From: a virus
Length of the DNA stretch: 32,131 nt
Direction: 5' to 3' (one strand)
IMG/VR virus record: IMGVR_UViG_3300005435_000040
Coordinates: 1-32,131 of that record
Below are positions 9,112 through 12,829 of the stretch, in pieces. Both the position numbers and the translations under genes were made by a program. Every line of letters starts with the position of its first letter. The stretch's first letter is position 1. The notes under the pieces were generated by a model. The model was not told the origin of the DNA. It made no database searches and saw only the letters and a program-made list of their open reading frames with translations.

Positions 9112-10161
9112 ATGAGACACACCCCTGCCCGGCCGCGCGTCCTTTTCATCCTGAAGCGCCGCACGGGCGACTACGAGGGGGCGTATGGAGGCGGCTACAC
9201 GCATTCACGTTCGTCCGGCCTGTTCAACTCGGTCGCTTTTGTTGTCGCCGAGCTCGAGAACCAGGGCTTCCAGGCGGAATTCATGGTCGTGACCGACAAC
9301 AACGATATCGACCGCGAAGTCGCGTCGTACCGCCCCACGCACGTGCTGATCGAGGCTCTTTGGGTCGTCCCGGAGAAGTTCGCCGAGCTCAAGCGCCTGC
9401 ATCCAAGCGTCAAGTGGGCCGTGCGGCTGCACAGCGAAGTGCCCTTCGTGTCCATGGAAGGCATCGCGTGCGACTGGGTCGCCCGCTACCTCGCCGGCGG
9501 CGTCGCCGTGGCCTGCAACAGCGAGCGCATGGCGGCGGACCTGCAGCGCCTGCACCCGCAAGGCAATATCCCCCTCCTCCCGAACTTCTACCCCCTGGTC
9601 ACCAGCCCGGGGCGCCCCGCGAAGCCGGCGCAGCGCCTTGATATTGGCTGCCTGGGAGCGATCCGGCCGCTGAAGAATACCCTGATCCAGGCGGTGGCTG
9701 CCGTCGAGTTCGCCCGCGCCAGCCGCCGGCACCTTTATTTCCACATCAACTCGAACCGCGTCGAGCAGCGGGGCGACCCGGTGCTGAAAAACCTGCGGGC
9801 GCTGTTCAAAGGGGCCGGCAGCGCCGAGCTGGTCGAGCACCCGTGGGTCAGCCATACAGAATTCCTCAAGCTCGTGGCGCACCTCGACCTCAGCATGCAG
9901 GTCTCGTTCTCGGAGACCTTCAACATCGTTACCGCCGACGCTGTGGCGTGCCACGTGCCGGTCGTCGTGTCGCCTGAGATCTCGTGGGTGCCCCGCATCT
10001 TCCATGCAGCGCCGACCTCCGTGCCCAGCATCGTGGCGGCGCTCGGCCGGGCGTGGGGGATGCGCAAAGTGGGCGGCGCGCGGCTTGCCAAGGCGGGTCT
10101 CTCCGCCTACAACCGGCGCTCGATGAAGCAATGGAAGGCCTGCCTGCAGGCCGGTCTCTAA
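9112..10161 (+). CDS. GT4-like (GT-B fold) glycosyltransferase, 349 aa
   Basis: This would be a cytoplasmic sugar transferase using a nucleotide-sugar donor. The C-terminal half shows IGCLGAIRPLKNT (178-190), matching the donor-site loop of GT4 enzymes, and FSETFNIVTADAVACHVPVV (266-285), the counterpart of the E-x7-E signature. Here the second acid is Asp rather than Glu. The N-terminal half carries a Rossmann-like region, with ARPRVLFILKRR at the start and WAVRLHSEVP near 102-111. It is the first gene of the plus-strand operon, directly opposite the terminase genes. The substrate could be phage DNA bases, virion proteins or host surface sugars; nothing in the sequence decides. The fold is fairly secure, the target unknown. 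Confidence 0.75.
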   Translation: MRHTPARPRVLFILKRRTGDYEGAYGGGYTHSRSSGLFNSVAFVVAELENQGFQAEFMVVTDNNDIDREVASYRPTHVLIEALWVVPEKFAELKRLHPSVKWAVRLHSEVPFVSMEGIACDWVARYLAGGVAVACNSERMAADLQRLHPQGNIPLLPNFYPLVTSPGRPAKPAQRLDIGCLGAIRPLKNTLIQAVAAVEFARASRRHLYFHINSNRVEQRGDPVLKNLRALFKGAGSAELVEHPWVSHTEFLKLVAHLDLSMQVSFSETFNIVTADAVACHVPVVVSPEISWVPRIFHAAPTSVPSIVAALGRAWGMRKVGGARLAKAGLSAYNRRSMKQWKACLQAGL

Positions 10162-10615: not shown

Positions 10616-10795
10616 ATGATCGAGTACTACATCATCGAGAACTCCGGCAGCGTTCTGTCGCTGCGCCAGGCCACCCGTTCCGAGGCCAAAGACGCCATCG
10701 TGCCGCTGAAAACCACCGCGGTCTACCTGCGCGACGGCCAGAAGCTCGTACTCAGTGCCGAGTACTCGGTGCCGAGTACTTTGGAGGCGGCATGA
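10616..10795 (+). CDS. Small protein, 59 aa, with a repeat-encoded tail
   Basis: The gene starts immediately after the previous stop. The protein MIEYYIIENSGSVLSLRQAT... is short and beta-rich, with no known motif. Its last residues (EYSVPSTLEAA) are encoded by a stretch containing three overlapping GTACT/AGTACT-type repeats (10748-10780) that also carries the GGAGGC ribosome-binding site for the next gene. The stop TGA overlaps the next ATG. A V-P-S-T tail recurs in other small proteins of this window. Confidence 0.55.
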   Translation: MIEYYIIENSGSVLSLRQATRSEAKDAIVPLKTTAVYLRDGQKLVLSAEYSVPSTLEAA

Positions 10796-11277
10796 TCGAA
10801 AAACTGAAGTGGTGGTTCCTGTTCTGCGCCAGCGCCGCGGCGCTTACCGGCGCGGGTGTCTTCGGCCTGCTGCAGGGACTCTGGCACGTCGACCAGACCA
10901 AGCTCTCGTTCGTGATCCTGACGGTCTATTTCGTGGTCTCGGGCTGGGTGGGCTGGCTCACCGTCCGAGCGGCTGCCTGGGGCACGTTTCGCGGCGCCGC
11001 CATCCGGACTCTGCAGCAAGCCGAGGTCGCGAAGCACCACCACGCCTGCGAGGAGGCCTCCGACCTGCTCATGAAGCTGGCCATCATGGGCACCACGCTC
11101 GGCTTCTACCTCATGCTCTCCGGCGCCTTCGGCTCAGGTGCTGCCCCCACCCCCGCCGCGATCGGCGAAGCGGCCAAGGGGCTGGGCACGATCTGCATCG
11201 TCACCTTCGTCGGCGTGCTCTGCTCGAGCCTGCTCAACCTGCAGCTCGTCAACCTGCGCTACCTGACCGATGTCTAG
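10792..11277 (+). CDS. MotA/TolQ/ExbB-like membrane protein, 161 aa
   Basis: The protein has four predicted membrane helices (about 7-29, 38-58, 94-113 and 130-152) with a basic cytoplasmic stretch between helices 2 and 3. The third helix begins LAIMGTTLGFYLMLSGAFG and the fourth is AKGLGTICIVTFVGVLCSSL. This layout matches the two pore-lining helices of the MotA/TolQ/ExbB family, where LGTxxG follows a short cytoplasmic helix and a G/A-x-T-xxG helix precedes the exit. The next gene has an ExbD/MotB-type single helix with a membrane Asp and overlaps by 8 bases, which strengthens the assignment. In known members the pair forms an ion-driven motor. Its role in a phage is unknown; exclusion of rival phages, envelope energising or lysis control are possibilities. 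Confidence 0.6.
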   Translation: MIEKLKWWFLFCASAAALTGAGVFGLLQGLWHVDQTKLSFVILTVYFVVSGWVGWLTVRAAAWGTFRGAAIRTLQQAEVAKHHHACEEASDLLMKLAIMGTTLGFYLMLSGAFGSGAAPTPAAIGEAAKGLGTICIVTFVGVLCSSLLNLQLVNLRYLTDV

Positions 11278-11881
11278 GCGCCGGCCGGGGTACTTCTGGG
11301 CGTGGCTCGACCTCTACGCCACCATGCTGGGGGTCATCACGTACCTGTTCATCGTGGCCGTCGTCCAGGTGCACCCGGCTGCCAAGCCGGGCGTGGCCCT
11401 GAAGGCCGAGTACCTGGTGCAACTCACCTGGCCCTCCGGCGCGCGCGACGATCTGGACCTGCACCTGCTCATGCCGGACGACCGCCAGCTCAATTTCCGT
11501 GAGCACGAGGTGGGCTGGTGCGTGCTCGACCACGACGACATCGGCACCAACGGCGTCTACGTCGACTTCGCCACCGGCCAGACGCGTGCGCTGGAGCACC
11601 GCGAGGTGGCCACGGTGCGCGCGCTGGTACCCGGCCGCTACGTGGCCAACGTGCACGTCTACCGGCGCGCGGAGGGCACCGACAGCGCGACGCTGCAGCT
11701 GCCCTACCCGGCTCGGGTCACGCTCACGCGTCTGAACCCCCGGGTCGAAGAGCTGGCCGCCGTCGACGTGCCGCTCGAGCGCACCGGCGAGCAGAAGACC
11801 GCCTTCGCCTTCACAGTGGCTGAGGACGGCGCCGTGGCCGTGGACCTGGCTGCCGACGTGCCCTTCATCCCGGTGCGCTAA
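11270..11881 (+). CDS. ExbD/MotB-like protein with C-terminal beta domain, 203 aa
   Basis: After a short basic start there is one membrane helix, WLDLYATMLGVITYLFIVAV (12-31), with Asp 14 at its entrance, the position of the ion-binding Asp in MotB, ExbD, TolR and ZorB. The remaining 170 residues would lie outside the inner membrane. They include ARDDLDLHLLMPDDRQLNF (58-76), CVLDHDDIGTNGVYVDF (84-100) and LVPGRYVANVHVYRR, resembling the D-x-D-L-H...LD-x-DD...G-x-Y-x-x-x-V phrases of DUF2135-like beta domains. It lacks the peptidoglycan-binding OmpA-type domain of MotB. The order ExbB-like then ExbD-like with overlap is that of a functional pair. Motif reading only; a profile search is needed for certainty. 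Confidence 0.6.
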   Translation: MSRRRPGYFWAWLDLYATMLGVITYLFIVAVVQVHPAAKPGVALKAEYLVQLTWPSGARDDLDLHLLMPDDRQLNFREHEVGWCVLDHDDIGTNGVYVDFATGQTRALEHREVATVRALVPGRYVANVHVYRRAEGTDSATLQLPYPARVTLTRLNPRVEELAAVDVPLERTGEQKTAFAFTVAEDGAVAVDLAADVPFIPVR

Positions 11882-12396
11882 TGGATCCCATCTTCGAGCT
11901 CCTGTGGCCGGCCCTGACCGTACTGTCGCTCCTCGCGACGTTCACCACCTGGGTCGCCCTGCGGGCGCCGGGCAGCTACCGCCTCAAGCTGCTCCTCGTG
12001 CCCGTAGCGCTGGTGGCCTGCACGGCGGCCGCGCCGCTCTTCGTCGACCTGCTTGGCCGCGCCGCGCCGCTCGAGCTGCCCCCCAAGTTCGTCCTGCTCG
12101 CGCACAACGTGATCGTGAAGGGCTCCCAGAAGGCAGGAATCGAGGTCTGGGCGCGCGTAGGCGCTTCGACGCGTCTGTACGTCATCCCGTACTCAAAACA
12201 GGCGGAGGAGGCCTTTGCGGGCGGCGAGAAGGCCGCGGCGCACGGCGGCCGGGTCGAGATCACGCGCCGCGGGCGCGGCGGTCACGGCGACAGCCGGGAC
12301 GAGTACGAGTCGAACCTGGTGCTGCCCGAGGCCGACGCGCCCAAGGACGCCCCGGCGCGCCCCGAGCCGCCCGCACCCGCGAAGGACTGGCTGTGA
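11881..12396 (+). CDS. Third membrane protein of the ExbBD-like operon, 171 aa
   Basis: Two N-terminal membrane helices (about 9-28 and 34-59) are followed by a soluble domain with a beta-rich centre (FVLLAHNVIVKGSQKAGIEVWARV) and a charged Pro/Ala/Glu tail (ADAPKDAPARPEPPAPAKDWL). The start is a TAATG overlap with the ExbD-like gene, so all three are coupled. It may be an accessory subunit of the channel, comparable in position to TonB or TolA, but I see no TonB C-terminal domain. Family not recognised. Confidence 0.6.
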   Translation: MDPIFELLWPALTVLSLLATFTTWVALRAPGSYRLKLLLVPVALVACTAAAPLFVDLLGRAAPLELPPKFVLLAHNVIVKGSQKAGIEVWARVGASTRLYVIPYSKQAEEAFAGGEKAAAHGGRVEITRRGRGGHGDSRDEYESNLVLPEADAPKDAPARPEPPAPAKDWL

Positions 12397-12467
12397 CCCG
12401 GCAGCTCATCGAGGGCCTCGTGCTGCTCATGCTCTGCACGCTCCTGCTCGCCCGGTGCGCCGGATGA
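12393..12467 (+). CDS. 24-residue single-helix membrane peptide (GTG start)
   Basis: A GTG overlapping the previous TGA opens 24 codons, MTRQLIEGLVLLMLCTLLLARCAG, ending in a TGA that overlaps the next ATG. Residues 5-20 form one hydrophobic helix. Perfect coupling on both sides argues that it is translated. It could be a small channel regulator or a degenerate lipoprotein; it is too short for firm assignment. Confidence 0.4.
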   Translation: MTRQLIEGLVLLMLCTLLLARCAG

Positions 12468-12829
12468 GAGCCGCACCCGCTCTGCCGAAGCGTGTCTGGA
12501 TCGGGACCAGCGAGGTCAAGATCTCAATCGTCCCGCACGACGACCCACAGCTCGACGGCGGAGAGACCCGCGGCACCACCATCTGTGAGCTGCCGCCGAA
12601 GGTCCACATCTCGGACGCGCTCGATCCGGGCTCGATGCTCGAGGTCGTGTGGCACGAATTGACACATGTAATCAACTGGTTAGCCGAACTCGGCGATGAA
12701 TCGACTGAAGAACAGGTGGCGGATGTGCACGGTCGGGCGTGGCCGGCGCTCCTTATCGCCAACCCGAAGCTGCAGCGCTGGTTCACCCACCAGATCAACG
12801 CCATCCGCAAGGAGCAGAGCAACGCATGA
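12464..12829 (+). CDS. HExxH zinc metallopeptidase-like protein, 121 aa
   Basis: The protein contains MLEVVWHELTHVINWLAELG (58-77) with the zinc-binding H-E-L-T-H (64-68), preceded by a beta strand region (PPKVHISDAL) and followed by a helix carrying EEQVADVHGRAW, where a Glu or His could be the third ligand. Small HExxH proteins of about 120 residues of this sort are found in many phages. A SprT-like or ImmA-like peptidase role is possible but not shown. It is coupled by ATGA overlaps on both sides. Confidence 0.65.
   Translation: MRAAPALPKRVWIGTSEVKISIVPHDDPQLDGGETRGTTICELPPKVHISDALDPGSMLEVVWHELTHVINWLAELGDESTEEQVADVHGRAWPALLIANPKLQRWFTHQINAIRKEQSNA

Follow-up and report, generated by a model that had tools for sequence, protein, structure and literature searches.

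A phage-borne three-gene operon for a probable ion-driven membrane motor with a TerD-like domain

Bacteria use ion-driven motors of the MotA/TolQ/ExbB superfamily to swim, take up nutrients, divide, glide and defend themselves against phages. Three adjacent genes (A, B and C) in a viral record of 32,131 nucleotides (IMGVR_UViG_3300005435_000040, the whole of which is called the window here) raise the question of whether a virus also carries such a motor and, if so, what for. A preliminary description of the window, made from its sequence, had proposed that these genes encode a MotA/ExbB-like protein, an ExbD/MotB-like protein and a third membrane subunit. It had suggested superinfection exclusion, envelope manipulation or timing of lysis as their possible role.

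The window comes from a tailed phage, in which head, portal and terminase genes as well as replication genes can be read. In the first 9 kb, genes for the major head protein, the portal and the terminase point leftward, while primase-, helicase-, exonuclease- and DNA polymerase-like genes run rightward from about 18.8 kb. The trio sits near the start of this rightward arm (Table 1). All three open reading frames were confirmed at the coordinates first given for them, each with an ATG start and all on one strand; A and B overlap by 8 bases, and B and C have one common base at a TAATG junction. A, B and C form a tightly packed operon of a genuine tailed phage. Hydropathy predicts four membrane helices in A, one in B and two in C, which bears out the proposed topologies, and AlphaFold models of A and B agree with this.

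Searches with the single proteins of the window (against Pfam and PHROGs and, for A and C, against phages) returned almost no matches, and the case therefore rests on the family. When the window and its close relative L005 were left out of the profiles, these still selected exactly A, B and C among the 375 open reading frames of the window (E values of 2e-33, 4.5e-48 and 1.6e-24, respectively), which rules out an artefact of the window or chance reading frames. Profiles from bacterial relatives alone selected the same three (A 5.5e-10, B 4.7e-38, C 4.3e-8). Several smaller features flank the trio. A glycosyltransferase-like gene lies upstream (9112-10161; phrog_2170, 1.2e-3), a reading frame of 24 codons directly after C encodes a hydrophobic peptide (12393-12467; TRQLIEGLVLLMLCTLLLARCAG), and a small protein with a WHELTH metalloprotease-type motif is encoded downstream of C (12464-12829; phrog_1233, 2.5e-8).

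Table 1. Features of the trio in the window, with selected genes in related loci (coordinates preceded by a locus name refer to that locus).
Feature	Coordinates	Strand	Description
Gene A	10792..11277	+	161 aa; four transmembrane helices; minimal MotA/TolQ/ExbB-type protein
A, TM3 (pore helix 1)	11065..11121	+	Gly100, Thr101 (codon 11092-11094)
A, TM4 (pore helix 2)	11179..11235	+	Thr138 (codon 11203-11205), Gly141
Gene B	11270..11881	+	203 aa; ExbD/MotB-like single helix and TerD-like beta-sandwich
B, transmembrane helix (residues 9-34)	11294..11371	+	Asp14 (codon 11309-11311)
B, presumed periplasmic domain (residues 45-203)	11402..11878	+	TerD-like fold; candidate Ca2+ site
Gene C	11881..12396	+	171 aa; two-helix hairpin, presumed periplasmic domain (R98, G122), flexible charged tail
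Example bacterial A-B-C operons	L110:5263-7084; L118:5139-7187; L132:5313-7119		
Trypsin-like protease genes	L014:6127-7026; L134:4577-5224; L135:4132-4842		

About 50 non-redundant viral loci came from two viral scans together with isolated phages. In nearly all of them A precedes B and C follows it, mostly directly adjacent, and the order A-B-C on one strand is found across the 107 complete loci, phage and bacterial, that were compared. Carriers include T4-like Pootjesviridae, RHph_I1_18, the RHph_N3_19 group and the temperate phage 16-3 with its relatives, and the trio is also present on environmental viral contigs, some of them 225-296 kb long. In a collection of 50,697 phage records, B was seen with the queries used only in phages of Rhizobium and Sinorhizobium; these are of several unrelated kinds, and B is annotated as hypothetical or left unnamed in all of them. 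Homing endonuclease-like genes interrupt A-B-C in several rhizobial phages (L015:5147-5884, L134:6535-7077, L135:5264-6022), and in 16-3-type temperate phages A has at its start, or a short way upstream, a gene for a protease that is trypsin-like and probably periplasmic.

The surroundings of the trio differ between phages. In rhizobial T4-like phages its neighbourhood includes genes for a sliding clamp, gp46/47-like nucleases and sigma factors. In RHph_N3_19 it is surrounded by genes for polymerase and nucleotide metabolism, and on some environmental contigs it adjoins a T4-type DNA polymerase gene, as read from the sequence. In phage 16-3 it is placed between the tail-fibre/immX genes and attP, within what the published region limits define as the genetically silent arm (PMC10460002), and it is therefore probably dispensable in the laboratory. 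This context of replication or accessory genes points to an early or accessory envelope job and argues against a lysis timer.

By its sequence profiles, protein A falls into the MotA/TolQ/ExbB superfamily, in a minimal four-helix form. The A protein of the window matches no Pfam family by itself and PHROGs holds no clear family for it, but the profile search called for in the preliminary description upheld the assignment: 37 of 43 A homologues, searched singly, matched Pfam MotA_ExbB (E<=0.05, best 6.3e-12), and in a separate scan two homologues lay above the gathering cut-off. A profile of 13 members searched against the PDB retrieved TolQ (4.3e-5), type I ZorA (5e-5), ZorA (1.7e-4), MotA (0.002) and ExbB (0.006); its top 18 matches were all from the superfamily, and a profile of 43 members gave a similar outcome. 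Profile-profile comparison with TolQ/ExbB proteins from five genomes reached an E value of 4e-9 at 96% probability. The HMMER alignment places Thr101 and Thr138 of A on Thr145 and Thr178 of TolQ, and the pore helices are strongly conserved (Gly100 in 49 of 49 homologues, Thr101 in 47, Thr138 in 43 and Gly141 in 46). The AlphaFold model of A is a helical bundle (pLDDT 92.2) whose closest known structures are ExbB (Z 11.3), TolQ (11.2) and ZorA (11.0). Background helical bundles reach 10-11 and Foldseek E values are weak (0.1), so the structural match taken alone is within the range of chance and the sequence profiles carry the claim.

B was modelled as a helix (residues 9-34) followed by a beta-sandwich (pLDDT 89.5). 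Asp14, whose conservation the preliminary description had named as a test, sits in the helix near its cytoplasmic end and is kept in all 51 phage relatives and in 54 of 64 bacterial ones. It is absent from ten bacterial proteins (L115, L117, L118, L120, L121, L123, L124, L128, L130 and L131), and an Asp four residues before this position is conserved in 63 of the 64. The helix region of B relatives resembles ExbD/TolR (for example AFLDMLFNMALAF). Aligned with ExbD by profile, B gives a weak best match in which Asp is paired with Asp. Pfam ExbD found no match among 43 viral and 22 bacterial members, and MotB_plug was matched by two of 43 relatives, at up to 9.5e-4. A plain ExbD was rejected, given the missing Pfam match and the TerD-like domain. 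The reading of B as a one-helix partner with an Asp invariant in phages stands; 'ExbD/MotB-like' refers to its architecture and does not claim that the entire protein is homologous.

The outer domain of B was previously likened to DUF2135, a view that did not hold up as its main identity: one of 43 members matches that family, at 3e-4, within a small number of marginal matches to DUF2135 and PPC, and the clear structural match is to TerD. TerD-family chains score Z 11.5, 10.6 and 10.3 against the domain, with the next unrelated entries at about 6, and the Ca2+-binding TerD of Klebsiella scores 9.2. The sequence relation is weak (E 0.009-0.019), the Pfam TerD profile matching nothing in the window at E<=10 and none of 43 B members; an aligned W and a DxDL motif are common to both. 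Going by the title of structure 2kxt, we take TerD to bind Ca2+. All 115 relatives examined keep W54, D61, D63, D89, G92 and E112, an indication of a metal site in B, with D61, D63, D89 and E112 as candidate Ca2+ ligands. Among viral predicted structures, B matched domains within larger, unnamed proteins, and these only distantly. The beta-sandwich profile also matches parts of much larger bacterial reading frames (L157-L161; 423-1150 aa, E 2e-9 to 6e-6).

C had been described as a two-helix protein with a charged tail that serves as a third membrane subunit, and it proved to be conserved and to recur with A and B. It has no sequence match in the PDB and no clear PHROGs family. The short loop between its helices contains Lys and Arg, which suggests that both ends are periplasmic; the tail is probably periplasmic too. 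Beyond the helices comes a small domain, in which R98 and G122 are conserved, and then a flexible tail, which ends in LPxPQxPEK in most bacterial proteins and, similarly, in LPEK, FPKD or IIQKD in many phage proteins. The tail of the window's own C (PAPAKDWL) fits the motif only loosely. The motif is perhaps a docking peptide.

Taken by analogy with MotAB, ExbBD, TolQR and ZorAB, A and B would form a phage-encoded ion-driven motor of the inner membrane with C as a dedicated third subunit, a reading to which we give a probability of about 0.7. A ring of A, presumably a pentamer as in its relatives, would enclose the helices of a B dimer in a putative 5:2 complex. Protonation or Na+ binding at Asp14 of B, beside Thr101 and Thr138 of A, would be coupled through a presumed ion flux to rotation of the two parts relative to each other. 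The work would enter the periplasm through the TerD-like, probably Ca2+-binding beta-sandwich of B and the periplasmic tail of C and be delivered to an envelope target. During infection or lysogeny the trio would be expressed alongside early or accessory genes, apart from the lysis cassette, and would alter the host envelope. The phage may benefit by superinfection exclusion, for instance via the outer-membrane receptors of other phages. Such exclusion is the single best guess for the job of the trio, one based indirectly on membrane location, gene position and apparent dispensability, and it is tentative, at clearly less than an even chance.

A chromosomal counterpart of the trio supplies the close rival to exclusion, namely support of uptake. 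Scanning genomes with two very similar B sequences, taken from isolate-genome viral records, turned up no loci, and a wider alignment found 64 in Pseudomonadota (L070-L133), nearly all with A, B and C in order; examples are listed in Table 1. An even draw of 398 Pseudomonadota genomes contained 14 with strong matches, one of which was the chosen centre. The five loci viewed closely all have a chromosomal context. Bacterial A proteins are longer than those of phages (median 239 versus 158 aa). A PQQ-dependent dehydrogenase of the methanol/ethanol type neighbours the trio in 32 of the 64 loci and a MoxJ-like binding protein is near it in 18, while in 40 loci C is followed by a gene for a probable lipoprotein of about 240 aa (for example L088:7084-7806) with no NCBIfam match. 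TonB-dependent receptors occur near some bacterial trios, in two receptor clusters of five loci each; L132 belongs to both, and there a receptor gene ends just before A.

In this rival the phage trio would be an auxiliary energiser of the outer membrane, a Ton-like coupler that sustains uptake of nutrients or cofactors in the infected cell, as the chromosomal copy may do for PQQ-dehydrogenase metabolism. The PQQ-dehydrogenase clusters and nearby receptors of bacteria favour it, as does the confinement of B to rhizobial phages within the phage collection, and C could fill the part of TonB. However, neither receptor genes nor PQQ genes were seen next to the trio in phages, and C is not built like TonB, which has one N-terminal helix and a long linker. 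The modules of phages and bacteria are also on separate branches: in the tree of B the two groups lie on either side of one branch (support 100/97), the A tree agrees, and the C tree agrees except for one row. We consider the energiser about as likely as exclusion or slightly less so. The phage side of the B tree is much deeper, and provisional midpoint rooting nests the bacterial clade inside it, although bacterial diversity is undersampled; the bacterial branch was possibly derived by transfer from phages.

Timing of lysis, one of the roles first suggested, is disfavoured by gene context. A pore formed by A and B that leaks ions, depolarises the membrane and so triggers or delays lysis would suit phage-encoded membrane proteins, and one A homologue weakly matches a holin PHROG (2.3e-3). 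The trio is found with replication genes or in accessory regions, however, and in most flanks viewed no lysis gene is annotated beside it; a lysozyme gene appears in the annotated flanks of only two phages (X2_25 and TM3_3_14B), several genes away. In the window itself no lysis genes were identified. A leak would need neither the large conserved domain of B nor the tail of C, and the pore in this superfamily is normally plugged and coupled, all of which makes a depolariser improbable. Slightly harder still to credit is a passive complex, in which the fold is kept as an envelope scaffold and ion coupling is lost. Such loss would fit the ten bacterial B proteins that have no Asp14, but the presumed coupling residues persist in phages over very deep divergence (Asp14 in 51/51, Thr101 in 47/49, Thr138 in 43/49).

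The least probable alternative is a defence-like device, which would sense envelope damage done by another phage and set off a response in the manner of ZorAB and its partner proteins. In its favour are the common motor superfamily, the place of ZorA among the best PDB matches of A and the weak match of one bacterial A to NCBIfam ZorA (3.7e-5, 22.8 bits against a cut-off of 500). Against it, A is without a long cytoplasmic tail and B without a peptidoglycan-binding domain, and no nuclease or effector gene was noticed as a conserved companion of the trio. Zorya needs both the long tail of ZorA and the peptidoglycan-binding domain of ZorB (PMC11890865). A Zorya system was accordingly rejected for the trio, A being 161 aa without a tail and the domain of B being TerD-like; unlike ZorAB the trio is carried by phages, and no conserved ZorC/D/E-like neighbours were noticed.

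Among known systems, TolQR and ExbBD provide the best structure and profile matches of A. Like them, the trio has GT..G and T..G motifs in its two pore helices, with Thr at corresponding positions, a one-helix partner with Asp near the cytoplasmic end and a third subunit encoded alongside. Unlike them, it is phage-borne, A is smaller and has an extra N-terminal helix, B has the TerD-like beta-sandwich in place of the ExbD/TolR domain, and C is a two-helix hairpin rather than a TonB/TolA-type protein. The MotAB/PomAB stators have the same four-helix topology of A and an Asp-bearing B helix, and two B relatives match MotB_plug, but A has no large cytoplasmic domain that faces a rotor and B has no OmpA-like peptidoglycan-binding domain. 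In GldLM, which serves gliding and type IX secretion, the periplasmic domains of the axle transmit mechanical energy without binding peptidoglycan (PMC9389320). B resembles this axle in architecture, as a subunit whose periplasmic domain would pass energy on, but its single domain has another fold. That fold is the one of the TerD family (tellurite resistance, phage inhibition), from which the copy in B differs in being membrane-anchored and presumably periplasmic.

The trio appears new in composition and in its carriage by phages, while the motor kind itself is known. A literature search for phage MotA/ExbB systems, links between TerD and motors, and ExbB in PQQ clusters found no description in the sources within its reach, which left aside most subscription journals; the earlier remark that no phage system of this composition has been described stands for the searchable literature. 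The TerD-like fold of B, the breadth of phages with the trio and its chromosomal counterpart beside PQQ dehydrogenases went beyond that preliminary description. The trio may represent a previously undescribed class of ion-driven rotary motor, made up of a ring of ExbB type, an axle with a TerD domain and a hairpin as third subunit. Such a motor would do a viral envelope job in very diverse phages and have one bacterial branch beside PQQ dehydrogenases, possibly from phages. We put this somewhat below even odds.

The 161-residue A offers a minimal putative ring protein for structural work, and p038/p040/p042 of phage 16-3 in Sinorhizobium meliloti are a ready model. The bacterial loci also bring to light a chromosomal operon of PQQ-dehydrogenase gene clusters that seems to have gone unstudied. 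The trio is conserved from the classical phage 16-3 to contigs above 200 kb and, if the motor reading is true, viruses would tap the ion gradient of their host directly for mechanical work on the envelope.
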